Of a stretch of 25,892 nt of DNA, positions 3,678-23,963 are shown piece by piece. The stretch's first letter is position 1. Every line of letters starts with the position of its first letter. The translations under genes were made by a program, and so were the position numbers. The stretch is taken from IMG/VR virus record IMGVR_UViG_3300034279_000393, positions 1 to 25,892 of that record; one strand, given 5' to 3'. The notes below the pieces were generated by a model. It saw only the letters and a list, made by a program, of their open reading frames with translations, was not told where the DNA came from and ran no database searches. This DNA is from a virus.

Positions 3678-4319
3678 ATGGCAACTAACATAATCACCAA
3701 CCGCTATCGGCCTGTCGTAGCGCCGCGCCTGCCGTCCGCTCCGCAGGAATACAACGCCCAATACCAAGAGCAGTTTATGAACATCTTGCGGTTGTACTTT
3801 AACCAGCTTGATAGTTTGTTGGGCGTTGTGGTGGGGGATAACGGGGGACGGTTTGTTCAGTTCCCTTACGGAGCATTCCACGACACTACAACACAATCGG
3901 CGGCGGCAACAGGCACGGCGTATACAGTTACATTTAACTCTACTGGTCTAAGTAACGGCGTTGCTATAGGGTCGCCAACATCAAAAATTACTGTTACAAA
4001 TGCAGGCATCTACAACTTCCAGTTTTCCTTGCAGCTTGATAAGGCATCTGGTTCCGCAGGGCACGCTTACATTTGGGCGCGGATAAATGGGGTAGACGTT
4101 GCGTATTCCGCCAGTGAAATGGCTGTTCAAGGAACCGTAGCAGAAAACATTGCAGCTTGGAATTTTGTGTTATCTATGCAGGCGGGGGACTACTTTGAGC
4201 TGATGTGGAGTGTGGATGACACCAACGTCCAAATTAAGGCTGTTGCGGCAGCGGCTCCAGTCCCGGCTATTCCCTCGGCAATCTTGACTGTCACATTTGT
4301 CTCGGCGCTCTCAACATGA
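3678..4319 (+). CDS. Putative tail fibre/knob protein with C1q/TNF-like jelly roll
   Basis: This 213-residue protein begins directly after the stop of the tail gene, with AGGAG at 3669-3673 as ribosome site. Residues 1-65 are polar with NAQYQEQFMNILRLYFNQLD, a likely short helix or trimerisation/anchor segment. Residues 75-213 alternate beta strands in the pattern of C1q/TNF-type jelly rolls: FNSTGLSNGV, then ITVTNAGIYNFQFSLQL, then IWARINGVDV, then AWNFVLSMQAGDYFELMW and a final strand ILTVTFV. The motif of a strand ending in AGxYxFxxS, followed later by AGDYFEL, is characteristic of this fold. A trimeric receptor-binding tip or a head/tail decoration is therefore inferred. It is short for a complete fibre, so it may attach to another protein. 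No enzymatic residues are visible. Confidence 0.6.
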   Translation: MATNIITNRYRPVVAPRLPSAPQEYNAQYQEQFMNILRLYFNQLDSLLGVVVGDNGGRFVQFPYGAFHDTTTQSAAATGTAYTVTFNSTGLSNGVAIGSPTSKITVTNAGIYNFQFSLQLDKASGSAGHAYIWARINGVDVAYSASEMAVQGTVAENIAAWNFVLSMQAGDYFELMWSVDDTNVQIKAVAAAAPVPAIPSAILTVTFVSALST

Positions 4320-5505: not shown

Positions 5506-5915
5506 CGCTCACTGTCCAGCATGTCCCGCAACAGTACACCGCCCAGACTTGGCCGTTGGTGGAGAAATTCATCGCTGCAACAGAGAAGTTTGGCGGGGAT
5601 GACTACTCGCTTGAGCAGATCAAAATGTACGTCACGCTGGGACATTGGACGTTGTTAGTGGCCACTGACGAAGACAACCAGCTTCACGGGGCAATGACAA
5701 TCGCTTTTCAAAACTACCCCAACGACAGGGTGGCGTTTGTGACTAGCGCAGGGGGTGCAGGGATTGTCAATGAGCCAGTACTGGATCAGTTAAAGGCGGT
5801 GTTGCGCGGCATGGGCGCTACCAAGATTCAAGCGGGCGGGCGTCCAGCAATGGTTCGCCTGCTGGAGAACCAGGGATTTACACGGCGTTATACCGTGGTT
5901 GAAACAAAGATATGA
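5502..5915 (+). CDS. GNAT-fold protein, T7 gp13-like position and size
   Basis: A 137-residue protein with the layout of a GNAT acetyltransferase: N-terminal helices containing WPLVEKFIAAT, a central strand WTLLVATDEDNQLHGAMTI, and a C-terminal helix plus strand RPAMVRLLENQGFTRRY as in the acetyl-CoA domain's last motif. The usual Q/RxxGxG/A pyrophosphate loop is not clearly present; VTSAGGAGI is only a loose substitute, so catalysis is doubtful. T7 internal virion protein gp13 is also about 138 residues and, as I recall, belongs to the GNAT-like clan. This gene stands between the tail genes and the internal-virion candidates, as gp13 does. It may therefore be a morphogenesis factor rather than a host-modifying enzyme. 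The start overlaps the upstream stop (ATGA), and no separate ribosome site is obvious. Confidence 0.65.
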   Translation: MTLTVQHVPQQYTAQTWPLVEKFIAATEKFGGDDYSLEQIKMYVTLGHWTLLVATDEDNQLHGAMTIAFQNYPNDRVAFVTSAGGAGIVNEPVLDQLKAVLRGMGATKIQAGGRPAMVRLLENQGFTRRYTVVETKI

Positions 5916-5925
5916 GGGCACTGTG

Positions 5926-7554
5926 ATGTTCAAATTTACCGACATACTCGACTTTTTTATGGGGCCACGCTTGTACATGGGCGGGGGTGGCGGCGCTCCT
6001 CCGCCTACACAGACCACGGTGTCCAACACAAACATCCCTGAGTATGCGCGTCCATACGTAGAGACGATGCTTGGCACAACCCAGCAGCAGTTGTACAACT
6101 ACGAGACAGACCCGACCACGGGGCAGAAATACGCCACTAGCATGAAGGGCTACACGCCGTTCAGCGAAGACCCATCCAAGTACGTTGCTGGGTTCAGCCC
6201 CATGCAGGAGCAGTCGTTCAGGGGAGCCGCCAACATGGGCACATCTCCCCAGTTGGACACGGCGTCGGGTATTGCGGGCTTGGCAGGACAACGCGCTATG
6301 GGGGCAAGCTACGACGCAGGGCAGTTTGGCAATCAGTTCCAAGCGCCCCAAGACTATCAAACCGGGCAGTTCAACTCCCAACAAGTCAATGCACCGCAGT
6401 TGCAAGACTTGCAAATGCAAGGCCCGGCTAATGTAAACGCGCCCAACTTGCAGCAGTATCAGATGGGGCCTGCCGAGCGTGTCAGCGCAGACAGCTTTAA
6501 CCAACCTGGAACTGCTAACCAGTTCATGAACCCCTACATGCAAAATGTAGTGGACATCCAGCAACGCGAAGCCCAGCGTCAAGCCGATATTGCAGGCACC
6601 CAGCGTGCTGGTCAGGCGGTTCGTTCTGGCGCATTTGGTGGCTCCCGTGCAGGGTTGATGGAAGCTGAAGCCGCACGTAACTTGGCCACGCAAAAGGGCG
6701 ACATCCAAGCACAAGGGCAGAACGCCGCGTTCCAAAACGCGCAACAGCAATTTAATGCCGAGCAAAACGCACGCATGCAAGCAGCGTTAGCCAACCAAGG
6801 CGCGGGTCTTACTGTGGGTCAGCAAAATCTTGGCGCTCAATTGGGCATACAGCAACTGGGTTCAGGTCAAAACCTGCAAGCGCAGTTGGCCAATCAAGGC
6901 ATGGGGTTCAATGTTGGCCAGCAGAATCTGGCTTCGCGTTTGCAAACCCAGGGGCTTGGCTCTGGACAAAACCTCCAAGCACAACTGGCCAACCAGCAGC
7001 AAGGTATGAACGCGCAACAAATGCGTGAACAGTCCCGACAGTTTGGCGCAGGTCAGGGCATGACCGCCGCACAGCAACGCGCACAGTATGGGTTGGCTGG
7101 CCAGCAAGCCGGGGAGCAGTCTCGCCAGTTTGGTGCAGGCTACGGCATGCAAGGGTTGCAGACCGGGCTGCAAGCCGCTGGTCAGTTGGGTCAGTTGGGC
7201 CAGACGCAGTACGGCCAACAGGTTGGCAACATTAATTTGCAGAATCAGTTGGGCGCTCAACAGCAAGCGCAGCAGCAAGGCATCTTGAACCAGCAGATTC
7301 AGAACTACGCCATGGCGCAGCAGTACCCCCAGCAGCAGTTGGCCTTTATGAGCAACATGCTGCGCGGCTTGCCGATGCAGTCCACCAGCACCAACATGTA
7401 CCAAGCCGCCCCCAGCAACGTGTCGCAGTTAGCAGGTCTGGGCATGGCAGGTTATGGCTTGAGCAGAATGGCAGGTATGAAAAAGGGCGGCAAAGTTAAA
7501 GCCAAGCAGCGCCCAGCAGGTCTGGCTGAGCTGGCACTCTCCAAAATAGGGTAA
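5926..7554 (+). CDS. Gln-rich internal virion protein candidate with tandem repeats
   Basis: A 542-residue protein. The frame extends upstream to a TTG at 5899, but the ATG at 5926 follows a GAGGG site (5914-5918) at good spacing and avoids overlap with the GNAT gene, so it is preferred. Residues 20-30 are a GGGGG/APPP stretch; residues 180-460 are extremely rich in Gln, Ala, Gly and Asn. Within this lie two exact-length 33-residue repeats (LANQG, VGQQNL, LGSGQNLQ) and a 29-residue repeat (EQSRQFGAG). The C-terminus is Met/Gly-rich and then basic (MKKGGKVKAKQRP). The composition and position resemble ejection proteins that line or extend the DNA channel, such as T7 gp14/gp15 types, but sequence identity to any is not claimed. 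No enzymatic motif is seen. Confidence 0.6.
   Translation: MFKFTDILDFFMGPRLYMGGGGGAPPPTQTTVSNTNIPEYARPYVETMLGTTQQQLYNYETDPTTGQKYATSMKGYTPFSEDPSKYVAGFSPMQEQSFRGAANMGTSPQLDTASGIAGLAGQRAMGASYDAGQFGNQFQAPQDYQTGQFNSQQVNAPQLQDLQMQGPANVNAPNLQQYQMGPAERVSADSFNQPGTANQFMNPYMQNVVDIQQREAQRQADIAGTQRAGQAVRSGAFGGSRAGLMEAEAARNLATQKGDIQAQGQNAAFQNAQQQFNAEQNARMQAALANQGAGLTVGQQNLGAQLGIQQLGSGQNLQAQLANQGMGFNVGQQNLASRLQTQGLGSGQNLQAQLANQQQGMNAQQMREQSRQFGAGQGMTAAQQRAQYGLAGQQAGEQSRQFGAGYGMQGLQTGLQAAGQLGQLGQTQYGQQVGNINLQNQLGAQQQAQQQGILNQQIQNYAMAQQYPQQQLAFMSNMLRGLPMQSTSTNMYQAAPSNVSQLAGLGMAGYGLSRMAGMKKGGKVKAKQRPAGLAELALSKIG
6781..6978 (+). repeat. Tandem 99-base repeat inside the Gln-rich virion gene
   Basis: Two adjacent in-frame units (6781-6879 and 6880-6978) each encode 33 residues with the pattern A-x-LANQGxG-x-x-VGQQNL, then LGSGQNLQ at the end. 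A third, shortened copy begins at 6979 with AQLANQQQGM and then diverges. The copies differ at synonymous sites (for example the LANQG and GQNLQ codons), so the repeat is not very recent and protein-level selection is plausible. Heptad-free but Gln/Leu-rich periodicity would suit a repeated helical hairpin. Confidence 0.8.
7027..7140 (+). repeat. Second in-frame repeat, EQSRQFGAG copies 87 bases apart
   Basis: EQSRQFGAG is encoded at 7027 and again at 7114, an offset of exactly 29 codons; the following residues keep a GxGM pattern. Codons differ between copies (gaacagtcccgacag against gagcagtctcgccag), so these are diverged duplications rather than assembly artefacts. It directly follows the 33-residue repeats, so the central domain is built from at least two repeat types. 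Confidence 0.7.
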
Positions 7555-7563
7555 GGAATATTC

Positions 7564-9291
7564 ATGATTAACGTCAACCAGATTACCGCCCAAATGGCGC
7601 GGATGTCCGACCAAGCGTTGCAGCAATACGCGGCTATGCACAAGGCCGACCCCTACACGTTGTCGTTGGCGCTGTCTGAGTCCAACCGCCGTAAAGAGAT
7701 GCGTCAGGGTGCACAGGCGGGGCAGCAACAGCCGCAGCCTAAAGTGGTTGACCAAGAAATTGCGCAGATGGGGCCACAAATGCCGCCCCAACAAGGGATG
7801 CCACCGCAAGGTGCGCCGCAAGGCACGCCGCCACAACAGCTTCCAGAAGACAGCGGTATTGGTCAGCTCCCGGCACCTAATATGCAGCGCATGGCTACTG
7901 GTGGCATCGTTGCTTTTGAAGAAGGCGGAGAAGTTCCCCGGTTCCGAGTTGGGGGCCAGCCGCAGGGGTACTCACACGGTATGGTTGACCCCAGCGGACT
8001 TTTTGGTGTACACCCGGAATCTTTGGCTTATGACCAAGCACGAGTTGAAGAAATTCTTGCGCGTAGAAAAGCTGCGGAGAGAGCGGCCCAAATTAAATTT
8101 CTTGAAACTGCCGCACCCGATACTGCACAAAGAATGAAACAAGAAGATGCGGCGCGTCTCCAACAATCCACTGCTCCCGCGCCTGTCCCCCGCGCTGCTC
8201 CCGCAGCACCCCCGCTTCCAGCCACGCCTGTTCCCGGTGCTACCCCGGCAAGAGGAATAAAACCCGGCGGCGGTCAAGGACTGAATCCCACCGTTGGCGG
8301 CGAAGGGCTGATGGCAGACATCCCTGGCCTGACTCAGACCGCTACAGGCACTGCAAAAGAGTTTCAAAATATGCGTGACCAGTTTGGCGAACCCACTGTG
8401 TCGCAAGCAGTGCAAAACAAAATTGGCACGTACACACTAGCCCGCGAAACAGACGCCAAAGCTGCACTCGATGAAATCAAAGCCGATCAAGCCAAGCAAG
8501 GCTTGGGCATGGAAGCCGTCGAAAAAAGAACCAAAGAACGGGGAGAAAAGTTGAGCAAACGCGAAGCTGATCTACCTGGGTTGGCCATTTTCCAAGCAGG
8601 ACTTGCCATCATGTCCGGGGAATCTCCGCACGGGCTGGTCAACATTGGCAAGGGTGCGGGCGTTGGGGCCAAGGCCTACACCGAAGGGTTGGATAAGTTG
8701 GAGGCGTCTCGTGAAAAACTGGACGAAGCCTTTGACAAGATCGACATGTTCCGTCAAAACCGTGCGGACATGAACGCCAAAGAAGTCCGCGCTGCCCAGA
8801 AAGACATCCGCGCTACCAGGACAGAAGCTGAAAAACTGGGGTTGGACGCGCTTCAAAAAGACGGCGATATGAACCGGGCAGATTCACGGGTTGCGTTTGG
8901 CGTAATGTCGGAAAACCGCGCCAAGATGTACGACATCAATGCAAGAGAGCGAATGGGGCTAGCTCAAATTTCTGCACAAGAAAGAATTGCAGCGAAGCAA
9001 GCGGAAACGGCAAGACTGAGTTCCCCTCTCCACATGTACCAACAGCTTGGTAATGAGCCCGAAGGAAGCCCGTTACTTAAAGGTTTTGGGCTGTTCAAAG
9101 AAGCGGACAAGGTACCTATGCTGTACAAAGCCTACACATCACAAGCCGCAGACCCCTTGAAGGGCGGTGAGTTCATGGCCCGGTACCCCACGTTTGCTGT
9201 GTATATGGCAGGTATGGGCGGTGCTGGCGGAAGCAGTTTTGTCGCACCCCCTGCAAATGCCCCTGTACTAAGAGCGCCGGGTCAGCGATAA
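7564..9291 (+). CDS. Internal virion/ejection protein candidate, Gln/Pro-rich then helical
   Basis: A 575-residue protein with AAGGA just before its ATG. Residues 1-50 are helical (MARMSDQALQQYAAM). Residues 55-105 are Gln/Pro-rich, then comes MATGGIVAFEEGGEVPRF, a Gly-rich amphipathic block that I recall from structural proteins of uncultured podoviruses. A Pro/Ala linker follows (about 200-235). The rest (about 265-510) is mostly charged alpha-helix with a short hydrophobic segment LAIFQAGLAIMSG near 340. The C-terminus is Gly/Ala/Pro-rich. Lying between the repeat protein and the giant protein, it fits a mid-size ejectosome component (T7 gp15-like position). No catalytic motif is visible. 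Function beyond a virion role is unknown. Confidence 0.6.
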   Translation: MINVNQITAQMARMSDQALQQYAAMHKADPYTLSLALSESNRRKEMRQGAQAGQQQPQPKVVDQEIAQMGPQMPPQQGMPPQGAPQGTPPQQLPEDSGIGQLPAPNMQRMATGGIVAFEEGGEVPRFRVGGQPQGYSHGMVDPSGLFGVHPESLAYDQARVEEILARRKAAERAAQIKFLETAAPDTAQRMKQEDAARLQQSTAPAPVPRAAPAAPPLPATPVPGATPARGIKPGGGQGLNPTVGGEGLMADIPGLTQTATGTAKEFQNMRDQFGEPTVSQAVQNKIGTYTLARETDAKAALDEIKADQAKQGLGMEAVEKRTKERGEKLSKREADLPGLAIFQAGLAIMSGESPHGLVNIGKGAGVGAKAYTEGLDKLEASREKLDEAFDKIDMFRQNRADMNAKEVRAAQKDIRATRTEAEKLGLDALQKDGDMNRADSRVAFGVMSENRAKMYDINARERMGLAQISAQERIAAKQAETARLSSPLHMYQQLGNEPEGSPLLKGFGLFKEADKVPMLYKAYTSQAADPLKGGEFMARYPTFAVYMAGMGGAGGSSFVAPPANAPVLRAPGQR

Positions 9292-9349: not shown

Positions 9350-12300
9350 ATGGCCAACTACATCCGCTTGCCCAACGGCGCGTACTATGAAGCTACAGAA
9401 GGACAGTCCCCTGCGGATGCCTTTCGAGACGCATATAAGTACTTTCCACAAGCGTTTGGTGTAGAAGCCCCAGCCCCCACAACTAAAAGCGGTCTGGGCG
9501 GGGCGTTTGGTAAGGGGCTTGAGTCACTTCTGTCCAGCGGACAGACCGCCGCAGAATCCCTGATGGGGTCTCCCGAGGAAGCGGCCAAAAGCGCATTGGC
9601 ACGCGGAGAAGCTCGGAGTAAAAAATACGAAGAGCAGGTCAGTTGGGATAAGGTCAAGAAGGCATACGAAGAGCAAGGCGTCTTTTCTGCCGCCAAGGAA
9701 GCGCTGGGCCAAGTCCCCGCAGCCATTGCTGAACAAGCGCCCAACATAGCATCGACACTGGGCGCGGCCCGGTTGGGCGCAACAGCAGGCTCCGTCTTTG
9801 GCCCGGTCGGCACGATTGTTGGCGGCGTGGCAGGCGCAGCCGCCCCGTCTTTAATCTCCCAGTTTGGCGGCAACATCGAGCGCCAAGCCGCTGAACAGCA
9901 GGCCAGGGGAGAAACGCTCAACATTGACCGAGGTGCGGCAGCAGCCGCTGCTTTGCCCCAGGCTGCACTGGATGTGGCCGGGACGTTCATTCCTTTGGGC
10001 GGGCAGCTTGTAAGCAAACTGACAGGAATACCCGTCAAAGCGTTGACGATTGGAGCAGGCAACGCCACCAAGCTGGCCGAAGAGCGTTTGCTTGCAACCT
10101 TGGCCAAAGGCACCGCCGTTGGCGCAGTAGCTGAAATCCCCACGGAAATTACCCAGCAGATGCTAGAGCGTGCACAAGCAGGGTTGTCTCTCACAGACAG
10201 CGATGCGTTGGCTGAATATGGCAGGACTGCATACCAAGTTGGTCTGCTGGCCCCTATTGGCGGGGCTGGCCGATTGTCTGAGCGCGGTGCTGCACGCGAC
10301 ACTGTGGCCAAACAAAAAGCGGACGAAGCCGCCCAGGCCGCGCAAGAAGCCGAAGCTGCCAAGAATGCACCAGAAGCACTGATTGCTTTGGACGATCAGT
10401 ACCGGGCTGCGGCTGCACAGCGCCAACAACTTGAAGCATTGGTTGCAACCAAGCCCACCAAGGCCTCCACGGTAGAAGAGAAGAAGGCATATGTTGCGGC
10501 CAAGCAAGAGCTGGCCAAGTTCAACAACGAGTTCAAACCGCTGGAAGCCGAATACCAGCAGCGCAAAGAAGCGATTGACGCGTTGTACGCACAGCAAGCG
10601 GCGCAGATGGAAGCTGAGACAGCCGGGGCACAGCCAACCGCTGCACAGGCAATCCCCAACGCTACCGCACTACCGCCCGTCACCAAGCTGATGGACCAGT
10701 TAAGTCAAATACGCACCCAGATCGACACGGTTGAAACTCAGTTGGCCGCAGGCCCAAGCATTGAAGAGCAAGAACAACTCCAGGCCCAGCGCCAAGCGTT
10801 GCTCCCTCAACTGGAGTCCTTGGGCGCGGTGGTAACTGAGCGCGGGGGTGTGGCAGCGTCCGAGAAAGAGTTCCTGGGCGAACTCAAAGCCGCAGAAAAG
10901 AAACGCCTTGAGTTGTTGGCCAAGGGGGACTTCGACGCTGCCGCCCAGCAAGTCACTAAGGTCAAGCAGCTTCAGGCCCAAGTCCCGCTGTTTGAAACCA
11001 TGCGCACGTATCAGCAGACGCAACCCGGCGAGACAATGGCGCTGTTCTCCCAAGAGCAAGCACCCACTCCAGCACCCCAAGTCACTGAAGCGCCTGAAAC
11101 CACAGTGGTTGAAGCAGCCGCGCCTGCCGCACCAGAGCCAAAAGAACCCGCCAAAGTACAGGCGTTGCAAACCAAGCTGGACGAAGCCAACGCTGCGCTG
11201 CCCACACTGGCCAAGGCTGGGGATGCTGCCGCACTGTCCAAGCAGACCGACGACATCAACAAGATTGAAAATGAGTTGGCCACAGCACAGAAGAAGCCCC
11301 GCACGGACATCTTTGATTTGTTCAGCCCCGCCAACATTTTGCGCACTGCCGTACAGAACAACGACCAGAAACTGATAGCCACCATCACGGACGTAGAAAA
11401 CAAGAAGACCAAAACTGCCGCGTTGGATAAAGCCGCTGATGAGCGCACCCGTGTTATGCGTTTGTTGGACGAGCGGTTGGGGCTTGGCGGGGAAGAGCTG
11501 GTTAAGAAACCGATTGAACCGGGGCTGCGGCTTCAAAGCGTGCGCCGTACTCGCACGCCGTTGTTTGAATCTTTTTTTGACACCAGAGCAAAAGCTAGAT
11601 TTACAAACGGCACGAACTTTGAAGTTATTGAGAAAACCAAAACAGATGAAGATGGCAACGTCGTTTTGGACAAGGACAACAAACCCGTAACGGAAAAGAT
11701 CAAGTTGCAAGACATCTACGACAAAGGCGGTGCGCCTGCGGTCGAGTATGAAATGGTCACGCAACAGATTGAAGACCTGAAGAAGCTGGTGGAAACGCGC
11801 CAGCGCAATGCCAAGAAGTCTTTGTTGGCACAAGCCTACGATTTGGCAGCGGAGCATGATGCGCTTACTGCGCAAATGGCGGCGCGTGAAGGAAAAACCA
11901 ACGTGTTCCTTCAGCGCAAACTTGACGCTGCGCTCAACAAATACAACATGGTGTTAGGCAAGATTGCCCCTGTGCGTGAGCAAATCATCAAGTTGCACCA
12001 AAGCCTGTACGAGACAACTCCCATTAAACCTGTTGTAGAAGAACGGGGACGGTTGCAAAAAGAAGAAAACGAACGCCGCCAAGCCACCGCAGCCGCTGTT
12101 AAAGCAGGCACAGCCAAGACCCCGATGTCACGCACGGCACAGACAGCCGCCCGGATTAACCGGGGGGATGTGCGCAAGGAAGCCGAAACGTCTGAAAAGC
12201 TGCGCAATCTGGCCATGGAGTTGGGCCGTCAAGAGCCGGGGTACAAGGCGATGCTACAGCAGCGCAAGAAGCGGCTGGATGCGTTGGTTGCCCGGTATGG

Positions 12301-15300
12301 CAAGGACGACGATGCGGTCAACGATTTCAAAGCCGTGGTGCGCGAAGAGATGGAAGCCAAGGCGCTGGAGTTGGGCAAAACAACGCCTGAATACAAAGCC
12401 ACGCTGAAGGAGCAGATTGCCTACTTTCAAGAAGTGCTACCCACAGCAGGCAAGCAAGTTGCCGCAAGTAAGCGCACACCTCAAGTTACACGCAAAGCCA
12501 CTGGTGCACCCAAAGAGTTGCGGGTTGCTGGTAGCCGCATGTCTGATAAAGAGATTGAGCAGACGATCAAAGACAGCGAAGCAGGCACAGCTTTCCGCGT
12601 TCGGTCCGCACCCGGTGAAAGCATTGACCCCGCCCAAGCACAAGCATTTATCGACAAAGTGCAGGCAGGATTGCCAGAGAACGTCAAGTTTGTGTACGCC
12701 GCCGACCCCGGCAAGATTTCCCTTGGTTTGCTTACGCGCATGTCTCAAGAAGGGATTGATCCCACGGACGCCATGGTGCAGGGCGCGGTATTCAGTGATG
12801 GCACGGTCTTGATCGTTGGCAACCAGCACACAGACCTCAAGGACTTGGAAGCCACCGTGGCCCACGAGTTGTTTGGCCATTACGGCATCGACACAATGAT
12901 TGGGGCCAAGCGGTTGCAAGAGTATGCCAACAAGACTGATTTGCTAAAACTGGCCGAGGACATTGGCGGAGCTGACCTGTTGGCCGAGATGCAGCAAGTA
13001 GCGGCATCCAACGCCGCCTTGGGCCGCAGCGAAGAAATCCAAAAGCTGCAAGTGTTGCGCGAGATCATTGCGCACACGGAAGAAACGCGGGTCACCGAGT
13101 CGTTCCGTCAAAAGGCTGGGCGCTGGCTCAAGGAGTTGGTCGGTATGGTTCGCGCAGCCCTGCGCGACATGGGCTTTACTGACATGGCCGCGATGTCCAA
13201 CTCGGACATTTTCTACGCACTGAAGAAGTCTCGCCAAGCGTTTGCTGACAGGAAGATTGGGCCGTATCGCGCTGCTGATGGACAGATTGCACTCCGCACC
13301 CGCAAAGAACCCGTGACGATTGGCTCATCCCTGACCGCCACCCAGGCCAGCGTAAAAGACCGCCTGCTTGGGAACTTCATGGGGTTGACCGGGCGTGTGC
13401 AGCTTGTTGACCAGCACGCCGCTTTGTCTGAGGCGCTCAAGCAAGGCTTGACCAAAGGGCAGATCACTTCTCTAGAAGCAGGCAACGCCGAATACTCCTT
13501 GCGGTTTGGCCAGCAAAACAGCCAGTACGCCGGGCAGTTCTTGACCAATGGCGCTGTTGAACTGGTGGCCAACAAGACTCCCCAAGGCGTTGAATATGTC
13601 TACAAAAGTAAGCCCGGCGTCAGCATGATTGATGTGGCCAAGGCGTTTGCCAAAGCCAATGTGGGCAATGATGCCCAGACCGAAGCCATGGCTACGTTGT
13701 ATCTGGCAGGCAAACGTGCGAAGCAAGTGGGTTGGGAAAAGCTCAACTTCGACGCAGACAAACTGGCCGCCATCAAAGCCGATTACGCGCAATTGATGGC
13801 AGTGCTCAACGCCAACCAGCCTGCCAAAAATGCGTTTGAAGACGGCTCTAAGCTGTATCAGAAATACAACGCCGGGTTGCTGGACTTTATTGTGCAGACA
13901 GGCGCACTCAAGCCCGGTAAAGCAGCCGAACTCAAAGCAATGGAGTACGTGCCGTTCTACCGGGTAGACCGCGAAGGCAACGTCGATTTGATGGTAGACA
14001 AAGAAACGCCTGTGCGCATCTCCAACATCAAGGATGAACCGCAGCTCAAAGAGCTTGTGGGCGGCAACACGCAGATTCTGCCTTTGTTTACCAGTTCGGT
14101 TCAGAACACCTTCATGCTCACACGCATGGGCCTGCGCAATCAAGCCATCAAGGAGTCGGCGTTTGCCCTGCGCAAGATCGGTATTGCCAGCCGCGTTGCT
14201 CCCGGCAAAGGCCCCGCTGGCACGCGCAATGATGTTGTGCGCTTTAAAAAGAACGGCGAAGATCACTACGCGCTGATCGACACCGACTTGTACGGCATCC
14301 CCGCCGACTTGATTGTCAAGGGCATGGAAGGCATCAAGACCACCATCCCGGCAATCGTCAAGCTGATGGGCTACCCAGCGGATGTGCTGCGTAAGTTTGT
14401 GACACGCAACCCCACATACGTTTTTCGTCAAATGGTGCGCGACCCCCTGAATGCTTGGCTGACTACAGGTACTGATGCCACTCCTGTGCTCAGCGCAATG
14501 AAAGAGCTTGGCAAAATGGTTGCAGGCCGCAGCGAAACAGAAAAGGCGCTTATGGCATCTGGCGCAATCAGCAGCAATGTCTTCACAGGCGACCAGCGCG
14601 ATATGTCCAAGTTCTTGGCTGACATTGCCGTAAACAAATCTGGTTGGGAAAAAAATCTGGCCAGAGCTGATGTTTTTGCAATGCGGGCAGATGCCGCTAC
14701 CCGCGCCGTGGTGTACAACGACTCCTTGGCCAAAGGCATGACGGAGCAGCAGGCATTGCTGCGCACCTTGGAGTCCATGAACTTCAGCCGCAAGGGGTTG
14801 TCGCCCAGCATGCAGATGCTGTCCACGATGATTCCGTTCTTCAACGCACAGATTCAAGGCTTGGATGTTTTGTACCGGGCGTTCAAAGGCCAGATGCCGT
14901 ACAGCGAACAACTCAAAATTAAAGAGAAACTGTACGCACGCGGCATGATGTTGGCGGTGGGCACGATGGCTTACGCCGCTTTGATGAGCGACGACGAAGC
15001 ATACAAACGCGCCAAACCCGAAGAGCGCTACGGCAACTGGTTTGTGTACATCCCAGGCGTGTCGGAACCTGTGCGCGTGCCAATCCCGTTTGAATTGGGC
15101 TACCTGTTCAAGTCACTGCCAGAGGCGATATGGAACGTGGCCCAGGGCGACGAGAAGGCAAGCAAAGCTGCGGCGGGAATTGGCAAGTTGCTTGCCCAGA
15201 CCAACCCGTTTGCGTTGCCGCAAGCTGTCAAGCCGCTGACCGAGGCGATACTGGGTAAATCGTTCTACGGCGGCGACATCGAGTCCGTGCGAGAAAAAGG

Positions 15301-15877
15301 GGTGCTGGCCACCGACCGCTACCGCGACAGCAGCACCGAGATTGCCAAACTGATTGGAAGCGTCACAGGTGAAGCTGGCGTGAGCGCGATCACCATTGAC
15401 CACCTGATTCGCGGATACACCGGGCCGTTGGGGATTGCATTGATGTCCTTGGCCAACCCGATACTGTCCCCCAGTGAGCGCAGTGATATTGCCACGCCTT
15501 CTGCCAAGCCCAGCAAGCTGCCGTTCATTGGCGGTTTGTTCCAGCCCGTTCAAGGCCGGGGCACCATTGACGAAGCCTACGACCGCATGGAAGAACTCAA
15601 GCAGATCAAGGGCACGTTTAACAGTATGGTCGAGAAAGGCCAGCGTGCGGAAGCCAAGGAGTTTGCTCAGCGGTACTCAACTGAGTTGGCACTGGCCACC
15701 ACATCCGGGCAAGTGCAAAAGGCACTGGGCGAAATGGCCAAGCAAGAGCGTGCGATTCGCGCATCCCCCAACCTGACCACTGAGCAGAAAGACGCACAGT
15801 TGGAAAAGCTGGACAAGCTGAAAACGAACTACGCTCGAAAGTTTATCGAGGTAGCCGATAGAACCAAACCCCAATAA
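9350..15877 (+). CDS. Giant internal virion/large polyvalent protein with zincin motif
   Basis: A 2175-residue protein. The ATG at 9350 is preferred over GTG 9341 because GAG at 9339-9341 gives a weak ribosome site at normal spacing and the N-terminus then reads MANYIRLPNGAYYEATEGQ. Regions in order: N-terminal motif (1-37); Gly/Ala-rich hydrophobic zone (about 135-235, a glycine-zipper-like membrane candidate); long charged coiled-coil and Ala/Gln/Glu-rich region (about 300-1090); an HELFGH zinc-binding motif (H1172, E1173, H1177) followed by REIIAHTEE, where E1238 could be the third ligand; a WLKELVGMVRAALRDMGF helix; and a C-terminal half with RNPTYVFRQMVRDPLNAW near 1686, resembling large polyvalent protein-associated domain 38. 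As the last, largest gene of the virion block it corresponds to T7 gp16: a protein ejected into the cell envelope. Peptidase activity is inferred. Confidence 0.75.
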   Translation: MANYIRLPNGAYYEATEGQSPADAFRDAYKYFPQAFGVEAPAPTTKSGLGGAFGKGLESLLSSGQTAAESLMGSPEEAAKSALARGEARSKKYEEQVSWDKVKKAYEEQGVFSAAKEALGQVPAAIAEQAPNIASTLGAARLGATAGSVFGPVGTIVGGVAGAAAPSLISQFGGNIERQAAEQQARGETLNIDRGAAAAAALPQAALDVAGTFIPLGGQLVSKLTGIPVKALTIGAGNATKLAEERLLATLAKGTAVGAVAEIPTEITQQMLERAQAGLSLTDSDALAEYGRTAYQVGLLAPIGGAGRLSERGAARDTVAKQKADEAAQAAQEAEAAKNAPEALIALDDQYRAAAAQRQQLEALVATKPTKASTVEEKKAYVAAKQELAKFNNEFKPLEAEYQQRKEAIDALYAQQAAQMEAETAGAQPTAAQAIPNATALPPVTKLMDQLSQIRTQIDTVETQLAAGPSIEEQEQLQAQRQALLPQLESLGAVVTERGGVAASEKEFLGELKAAEKKRLELLAKGDFDAAAQQVTKVKQLQAQVPLFETMRTYQQTQPGETMALFSQEQAPTPAPQVTEAPETTVVEAAAPAAPEPKEPAKVQALQTKLDEANAALPTLAKAGDAAALSKQTDDINKIENELATAQKKPRTDIFDLFSPANILRTAVQNNDQKLIATITDVENKKTKTAALDKAADERTRVMRLLDERLGLGGEELVKKPIEPGLRLQSVRRTRTPLFESFFDTRAKARFTNGTNFEVIEKTKTDEDGNVVLDKDNKPVTEKIKLQDIYDKGGAPAVEYEMVTQQIEDLKKLVETRQRNAKKSLLAQAYDLAAEHDALTAQMAAREGKTNVFLQRKLDAALNKYNMVLGKIAPVREQIIKLHQSLYETTPIKPVVEERGRLQKEENERRQATAAAVKAGTAKTPMSRTAQTAARINRGDVRKEAETSEKLRNLAMELGRQEPGYKAMLQQRKKRLDALVARYGKDDDAVNDFKAVVREEMEAKALELGKTTPEYKATLKEQIAYFQEVLPTAGKQVAASKRTPQVTRKATGAPKELRVAGSRMSDKEIEQTIKDSEAGTAFRVRSAPGESIDPAQAQAFIDKVQAGLPENVKFVYAADPGKISLGLLTRMSQEGIDPTDAMVQGAVFSDGTVLIVGNQHTDLKDLEATVAHELFGHYGIDTMIGAKRLQEYANKTDLLKLAEDIGGADLLAEMQQVAASNAALGRSEEIQKLQVLREIIAHTEETRVTESFRQKAGRWLKELVGMVRAALRDMGFTDMAAMSNSDIFYALKKSRQAFADRKIGPYRAADGQIALRTRKEPVTIGSSLTATQASVKDRLLGNFMGLTGRVQLVDQHAALSEALKQGLTKGQITSLEAGNAEYSLRFGQQNSQYAGQFLTNGAVELVANKTPQGVEYVYKSKPGVSMIDVAKAFAKANVGNDAQTEAMATLYLAGKRAKQVGWEKLNFDADKLAAIKADYAQLMAVLNANQPAKNAFEDGSKLYQKYNAGLLDFIVQTGALKPGKAAELKAMEYVPFYRVDREGNVDLMVDKETPVRISNIKDEPQLKELVGGNTQILPLFTSSVQNTFMLTRMGLRNQAIKESAFALRKIGIASRVAPGKGPAGTRNDVVRFKKNGEDHYALIDTDLYGIPADLIVKGMEGIKTTIPAIVKLMGYPADVLRKFVTRNPTYVFRQMVRDPLNAWLTTGTDATPVLSAMKELGKMVAGRSETEKALMASGAISSNVFTGDQRDMSKFLADIAVNKSGWEKNLARADVFAMRADAATRAVVYNDSLAKGMTEQQALLRTLESMNFSRKGLSPSMQMLSTMIPFFNAQIQGLDVLYRAFKGQMPYSEQLKIKEKLYARGMMLAVGTMAYAALMSDDEAYKRAKPEERYGNWFVYIPGVSEPVRVPIPFELGYLFKSLPEAIWNVAQGDEKASKAAAGIGKLLAQTNPFALPQAVKPLTEAILGKSFYGGDIESVREKGVLATDRYRDSSTEIAKLIGSVTGEAGVSAITIDHLIRGYTGPLGIALMSLANPILSPSERSDIATPSAKPSKLPFIGGLFQPVQGRGTIDEAYDRMEELKQIKGTFNSMVEKGQRAEAKEFAQRYSTELALATTSGQVQKALGEMAKQERAIRASPNLTTEQKDAQLEKLDKLKTNYARKFIEVADRTKPQ

Positions 15878-23420: not shown

Positions 23421-23646
23421 TTGCTTTCCTTTGTTCGCGGCACTTAACAACATGAGGACCTGCGTGGCCGTAGTACCCGCCGCAGATGTTGTCGCCTGAT
23501 CGACCCACGCACGCAACAAAGCCAGTAAGTGGACATTCTTCTCGATGCGTAGGCGTGCACCCCTCACTGCCGTAGTCTGACACGGCCACCGCATAGAAGC
23601 GCACGAACACTGGTTTGTCGTCTTCGTAAATTACTTCGTGAATCAT
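23413..23646 (-). CDS. Small Cys/His-rich protein, possible zinc binder
   Basis: The ATG at 23646 is chosen: it forms TGATG with the stop of the upstream peptidase gene, whereas the open frame's preceding TTG has no advantage. The stop overlaps the nuclease start by eight bases. The 77-residue product contains C30, C38, C46, C55 and C69 with H61 and H65 in CGGYYGHAGPH, suggesting one or two metal sites. The first 25 residues form a beta hairpin (VIYEDDKPVFVRFYAVAVS). I recall CGG-x-GHxGPH-type motifs in short phage proteins but no function. Confidence 0.65.
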   Translation of the reverse strand: MIHEVIYEDDKPVFVRFYAVAVSDYGSEGCTPTHREECPLTGFVACVGRSGDNICGGYYGHAGPHVVKCREQRKANG

Positions 23647-23963
23647 CAAAATCTCGCAGTCTCTATTGCTTTGGTCAAGCGGTTGGCGAACCGGGTCACG
23701 AAGCGTTCGTTCTTGTTCAAGCTGTCCTCGCCCATGTCGTGCAAGATGGCGTGCACCACCTCGTGCCAGAAGGTGTCGTGGACTTCGGTGGGCTTGTACA
23801 CACGCCCGGTGCTGTTGCTCTTGAGTCCGATCTTGATGTTCCTGTCGGGGTAGTACGTGCGCCCCATCAGGTTCTTCTCGATCATCGCTTCGACAACCTC
23901 AACCGAGTATGTCCTGCTGCCTACGCGCATCTTGCGCGGTATCTGTCTGTGCTTTACTGTCAT
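23646..23963 (-). CDS. Small zinc metallopeptidase-like protein (SprT/ImmA-type)
   Basis: A 105-residue protein with a strong AAGGAG site before ATG 23963. It has a short N-terminal beta region (MRVGSRTYSVEVVEAM) and then WHEVVHAILHDMG, an HExxH zinc-binding helix (H67, E68, H71). E86 in NKNERFVTRF is a likely third ligand, as in gluzincin/ImmA-like enzymes. The length suits a minimal peptidase domain. In phages such genes may act on host regulators or on DNA-bound proteins, but the substrate here is unknown; its place directly after the polymerase gene suggests early expression. An ImmA-like role in lysogeny is less likely because no repressor or integrase is visible in this window. Confidence 0.78.
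   Translation of the reverse strand: MTVKHRQIPRKMRVGSRTYSVEVVEAMIEKNLMGRTYYPDRNIKIGLKSNSTGRVYKPTEVHDTFWHEVVHAILHDMGEDSLNKNERFVTRFANRLTKAIETARF

Follow-up and report, generated by a model that had tools for sequence, protein, structure and literature searches.

The largest gene of the window (the whole stretch of viral DNA that was analysed, 25,892 nucleotides, IMG/VR record IMGVR_UViG_3300034279_000393) encodes a protein of 2175 amino acids, designated P0001 (9350..15877, + strand), which on the evidence of its open frame and of Pfam and PHROG matches is an LPD38 polyvalent protein and a probable ejected internal virion protein. We consider it reasonably probable that P0001 is packaged in the capsid of a short-tailed phage and ejected, and that it bears an exchangeable zincin which acts during or just after ejection, most likely on P0001 itself.

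The frame of P0001 runs from an ATG at 9350 to a stop at 15877 with no internal stops, in agreement with a preliminary description of this DNA, which had named it the largest gene of the window. The domain-38-like polyvalent C-terminus proposed in that description was confirmed by Pfam: LPD38 (PF18857) was matched at residues 1882-2060 (14993..15529, + strand) over the full model (positions 1-189), with an E value of 4.5e-31 and a score of 108.8 bits against a cut-off of 27. A PHROG match was also obtained (phrog_18222, residues 1453-2044, E=3.7e-29). LPD38 forms the core of a conserved, mostly helical C-terminal module (residues 1437-2175; 13658..15874, + strand), recognised by alignment, profile and model; 53 sequences were aligned over this module, the identity of relatives being 41-72%, and its profile matched all ten of the cultured LPD38 proteins examined. 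Neither by sequence nor by fold could the module be matched to a solved ejection protein or to any other PDB entry, the Foldseek search of its model (pTM 0.43) giving nothing significant. Near the N-terminus, the glycine-zipper-like zone of the preliminary description was recovered as a Gly-rich hydrophobic stretch (residues 143-215; 9776..9994, + strand; hydropathy peaks of 1.36 and 1.35) with two GxxxGxxxG runs (residues 143-151 and 154-162), which may insert into the membrane. No lytic domain was found in P0001 with Pfam, and no cargo domain was detected in it.

The putative zincin cassette occupies about residues 1055-1325 (12512..13324, + strand), its boundaries in P0001 having been carried over from the segment replaced in a pair of relatives (L114/L161, described below) and its fold being that of an AlphaFold2 model. 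Its motif, HELFGH (residues 1172-1177; 12863..12880, + strand), which comprises two predicted zinc-ligand His and a predicted catalytic Glu, had previously been named HExxH. This name had to be corrected: with His at i and i+5 the motif is HExxxH, one residue longer than the canonical zincin motif with His at i and i+4, and no HExxH turned up in a regular-expression search of P0001 and the four relatives collected first. Despite the extra residue, HELFGH remains a zincin-type site. The only residues invariant over the 280-amino-acid HExxxH domain in 42 HExxxH-class relatives were H1172, E1173, H1177, E1238 and one Ala; the class was assigned by the motif residues, no complete protein was left out for absence of the motif, and neither E1238 nor the Ala played any part in the selection. 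The importance attached beforehand to a Glu at 1238, downstream of the motif, was thereby upheld, and this residue (13061..13063, + strand; invariant column E166 of alignment A4) is the predicted third zinc ligand. The H, E and H residues of the HELFGH type were also kept in cultured phages, so that the two His and the Glu by which HExxH and HExxxH zincins are recognised are conserved. It had been proposed that free variation of the motif residues among relatives would tell against a zincin; since the key residues are invariant, the assignment is not refuted on this count.

An AlphaFold2 model was built for residues 1073-1352 from an alignment of 42 sequences (mean pLDDT 78; 80-96 in most core blocks). 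The elements were found to be, in order, an N-terminal helix, three strands, a helix bearing HExxxH (model positions 91-106) and a second helix bearing the Glu (156-173), which is the order described in the polyvalent-protein account of Iyer et al. (PMC5512222). Both His (positions 100 and 105) lie on the first of these two helices and E1238 (position 166) lies on the second, as is required of a third ligand. As regards the convergence of H1172, H1177 and E1238 that had been suggested as a check, the placing of the residues on the helices agrees with a zincin, and the approach of E1238 to the two His is predicted from the topology. The model supports a zincin-like fold for this domain of P0001, with H1172, H1177 and E1238 as predicted ligands. 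With the zincin model, too, Foldseek returned no significant match from the PDB. Among viral models the best Foldseek matches were large phage proteins, of which several bear the name large polyvalent protein (best E=6.5e-8). The HExxxH profile had no significant match among solved structures in the PDB, and no confident Pfam family was obtained for the zincin from single sequences or from the alignment, the weak matches of these to zincin-like Pfam families (E 0.003-0.06) not being taken as proof.

Conservation was judged on relatives fetched by patterns of the C-terminal LPD38 module only, with the motif unused; an earlier set of relatives was left out of this judgement because it had been collected via the motif. 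The set consisted of the 80 viral-contig loci most similar to the window, of which 62 were complete. HE-x(2,3)-H was present in all 62 complete relatives, whereas composition-preserving shuffles gave 0.75 of 62. For 50 of these relatives its place was about 1,000 residues from the C-terminus, at -1045 to -960 (0.04 in shuffles). Among the proteins of more than 1,100 amino acids, 73 in number, a single one had no motif; this was L101 (1537 amino acids), whose 5' end is cut, and in its close relative L103 the motif lies at -1850, beyond the point of the L101 cut. As the 80 loci are those closest to the window, ten cultured phages with LPD38 proteins were also examined. The motif was found in eight of these, near -1000 (at -1252 in CF418P1), and was not found in the LPD38 proteins of Bacillus phage Pascal and Pelagibacter phage HTVC034P; the zincin motif is therefore not essential to every LPD38 protein. 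Thalassomonas phage BA3, Vibrio phage 1.183.O and VvAW1 showed another HExxH type, in which HEMAH precedes EGFAEF. Cultured relatives carry the zincin close to the LPD38 module, behind recognisable cargo domains such as InPase, helicase/methylase or ParB. Since a zincin fills the slot in nearly all long LPD38 relatives, the arrangement is, as judged from sequence, not special to P0001. A scan of genome_contigs for relatives returned only five distant loci and no host.

The occupant of the slot was found to change repeatedly. On a tree of the C-terminal module, made by a quick method, 13 changes of motif class were counted by parsimony, and no fewer than 11 switches between the HExxH and HExxxH classes are needed to account for the starred branches. 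In the pair L114/L161 identity is mostly 55-90% in the flanks and 15-25% in the zincin segment, with HEVTH against HEVAGH, while in the pair L150/L147, with flanks mostly 80-96% identical, a HEVAGH zincin is exchanged for a HEVGVH zincin together with about 450 extra residues. As read from the alignments, the differences in both pairs are whole-cassette replacements and not single-residue insertions, and because the cassette was replaced between conserved flanks in two pairs, with flank identity mostly at 70-96% over the two, the slot appears to be obligate and its occupant exchangeable. The roughly 450 extra residues beside the zincin of L147 (residues ~1911-2373) looked ADP-ribosyltransferase-like by eye; the only Pfam match in L147 at E<=0.001 was to LPD38.

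When the profiles of the two classes were compared, the probability of a link between HExxxH and HExxH was 66% for the best subgroup and 4% for the main subgroup, which holds the window; homology of the classes over the motif is thus weakly supported. The strong full-length profile match between the classes falls in the linker after the zincin, and for this reason a one-residue insertion leading from HExxH to HExxxH is not claimed; the whole cassette differs in both clean swap pairs.

The HExxH-class profile matched the tetrameric ejection protein (TEP) gp48 of PhiM1 (8VB2 chain A; residues 381-515, E=1.8e-6) and, among other structures, an internal virion protein (9sfn, 1.4e-5); a weak match was to gp10 of 23sg (0.019). 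HExxH and the downstream Glu are kept in each of the three. As the HExxxH profile of the window misses solved structures, the link to the ejectosome is drawn from the shared slot and the HExxH-class relatives. Like P0001, PhiM1 gp48 is a large ejectosome protein and carries its motif, HEAAH near chain residue 385, with a downstream Glu; unlike P0001, it has HExxH, is 1263 amino acids in length and showed no match to the C-terminal module. In the PhiM1 paper residues 268-528 are called endolysin/exotransglycosidase-like and the words peptidase and protease are absent; the profile match suggests that this 'endolysin-like' domain may have been wrongly named. The virion RNA polymerase (vRNAP) of N4, which has HELVH at 2228, also matched the HExxH-class profile (domain iE 2.9e-4). 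A 2025 preprint (PMC12633501) assigns to C1 of this protein an HExxH motif of the kind seen in zincins and describes the C2 that follows as large, helical and lacking known homologues; it was the only literature found to link ejection proteins with a zincin. N4 vRNAP is similar to the LPD38 zincin proteins in being an injected giant with cargo, an HExxH domain (C1, 2124-2375) and the large helical C2; it differs from P0001 in having RNA polymerase as cargo and HELVH as motif, and a relationship of C2 to the LPD38 module was not detectable (E=0.13).

HEXXXH polyvalent metallopeptidases and LPD38 are already known, the HEXXXH variants having been described in 2017 in the account of Iyer et al. 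(PMC5512222). P0001 resembles these in its HExxxH, its downstream Glu, its predicted three-stranded zincin core and its nature as a large phage polyvalent protein. In contrast, the near-obligate slot on the LPD38 side and the repeated class switching measured here were not found in the available part of that account, and the present analysis adds the slot rule, a count of the switches and the match to PhiM1. An HExxxH site is workable, since in dipeptidyl peptidase III (M49) both HEXXH and HEXXGH enzymes occur naturally and coordinate zinc in a similar way (PMC5805324). The likeness of HELFGH to the HEXXGH hexapeptide and downstream Glu ligand of that enzyme is one of analogy only, as PDB and Pfam profile searches revealed no similarity to M49 by which P0001 could be placed in the family.

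Upstream of P0001 are a lysozyme gene, a gene for a virion structural protein (phrog_3287) and small tail-like genes, followed by genes for proteins of 551 and 575 amino acids. The 551-amino-acid ORF (5899..7554, + strand) encodes a probable DNA ejection protein, 12 of 17 aligned relatives matching phrog_4287 ('DNA ejection protein'; best E=1.3e-18), although the copy in the window scored below threshold against it. The 575-amino-acid protein (7564..9291, + strand), directly upstream of P0001, is by its conserved position a probable partner virion protein; the relatives sampled lie 60 bases or less from the LPD38 gene, and the protein itself had no significant match in Pfam, PHROGs or the PDB. 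For each of the two proteins there were 53 ORF hits to relatives that precede an LPD38 gene in other viral contigs, and profiles of both gave nothing significant against the PDB. P0001 is thus co-encoded with a probable ejection protein after tail-like genes, with a virion structural protein upstream. In pelagiphage HTVC034P the LPD38 protein is encoded after tail tubular B and an internal-virion-protein-like gene and before a tail fibre gene, and the T7 ejection proteins follow a similar gene order. Mass spectrometry of purified virions identified 51 unique peptides of JC1 gp69, a Bcep22-like LPD38 protein of 4515 amino acids (PMC9144972). The presence of LPD38, a neighbour belonging to a DNA-ejection-protein family and the finding of JC1 gp69 in virions all support the ejection-type protein of the preliminary description; by analogy, P0001 itself would be packaged in virions and ejected.

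P0001 would leave the capsid with the DNA, in a position equivalent to that of T7 gp16. Its N-terminal half, with a Gly-rich zone for the membrane and a variable region of some length, would be joined to the conserved C-terminal LPD38 module. This module, of about 740 residues, probably serves to dock P0001 in the virion or ejectosome. The exchangeable, catalytically competent HExxxH cassette would lie between the halves, and in it zinc would be bound by H1172, H1177 and E1238 and water activated by E1173. The protease would most likely be active during or just after ejection, and the first choice of substrate is P0001 itself, cut in cis near the junction of the halves; zinc binding, peptidase activity and cis cleavage are all inferred. 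Self-processing fits best with the fixed junction position, the near-constant occupancy and the indifference to zincin class. According to PMC5512222, N4 vRNAP is packaged unprocessed, so any self-cut would come late; this lack of processing counts against cis cleavage, as does the keeping of a zincin by P0001, in which cargo was undetected.

The preliminary description had suggested that the peptidase could act on the cell envelope or host defence proteins; self-processing appears at least as likely. A host target is the main rival: the zincin would be an injected effector cutting host defence or envelope proteins at entry, and class switching would reflect an arms race over targets or inhibitors. 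In its favour, zincin classes have replaced one another repeatedly at a single site, likely effector or anti-restriction domains occur in other relatives, and the role is allowed by PMC5512222. Optional effectors should, however, be absent somewhere, yet no complete relative lacked the motif, and the junction position is mostly fixed; this explanation is accordingly considered possible and somewhat unlikely. That the domain is a structural or metal-bound packaging scaffold, with catalysis irrelevant, is improbable: although the N4 region including the MPTase is needed for encapsidation (PMC5512222), and the zinc-ligand geometry comes from predicted topology, the predicted general base E1173 is invariant along with the ligands, and wholesale replacement of the zincin preserves the active-site pattern and not the rest of the domain. 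Degradation of the cell wall or envelope for passage of the ejectosome, in the manner of the lytic domain of T7 gp16, is quite improbable. T7 gp16 has a peptidoglycan-cutting domain, the PhiM1 TEP domain covering the matched zincin has been called endolysin-like and P0001 is without a detected lytic domain, but the PhiM1 profile match is to a zincin and not to a lysozyme, Burkholderia JC1 gp69 comes with an LT-like domain in any case, and peptidoglycan would be an unusual substrate for the zincin fold.

Beyond P0001, the ejected giants of short-tailed phages may share a near-obligate protease slot on the LPD38 side, refilled with zincins by recombination and needed for entry whatever the class, the PhiM1 'endolysin-like' domain being likewise a zincin; this is put forward tentatively, at slightly less than an even chance. 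Zincins are the commonest domain reported for polyvalent proteins (PMC5512222). A nearly always filled slot with exchangeable enzymes provides natural swap pairs for separating cis cleavage from host targets, and coliphage PTXU04, whose protein has the motif HEIIVH, N4 and PhiM1 are cultured models for this comparison.

Three minor features were also observed. In L127, L128 and L129 the zincin contains an insert of about 115 residues between HEAVH and the downstream Glu region, which starts with a Tat-signal-like stretch (SRRAFLQTTAAVAGATKLG) and after which the zincin resumes; L124 is without the insert. A 213-amino-acid protein of the window (3678-4316, + strand) had minor tail protein PHROG matches and a weak BclA_C/C1q-like match (E=0.002, below cut-off). 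The opposite strand of the window holds a replication module, in which a 105-amino-acid protein (23646-23963, - strand) combines HEVVH with weak SprT-like similarity (E=0.0057, below cut-off) and is possibly a second zincin of the same phage.
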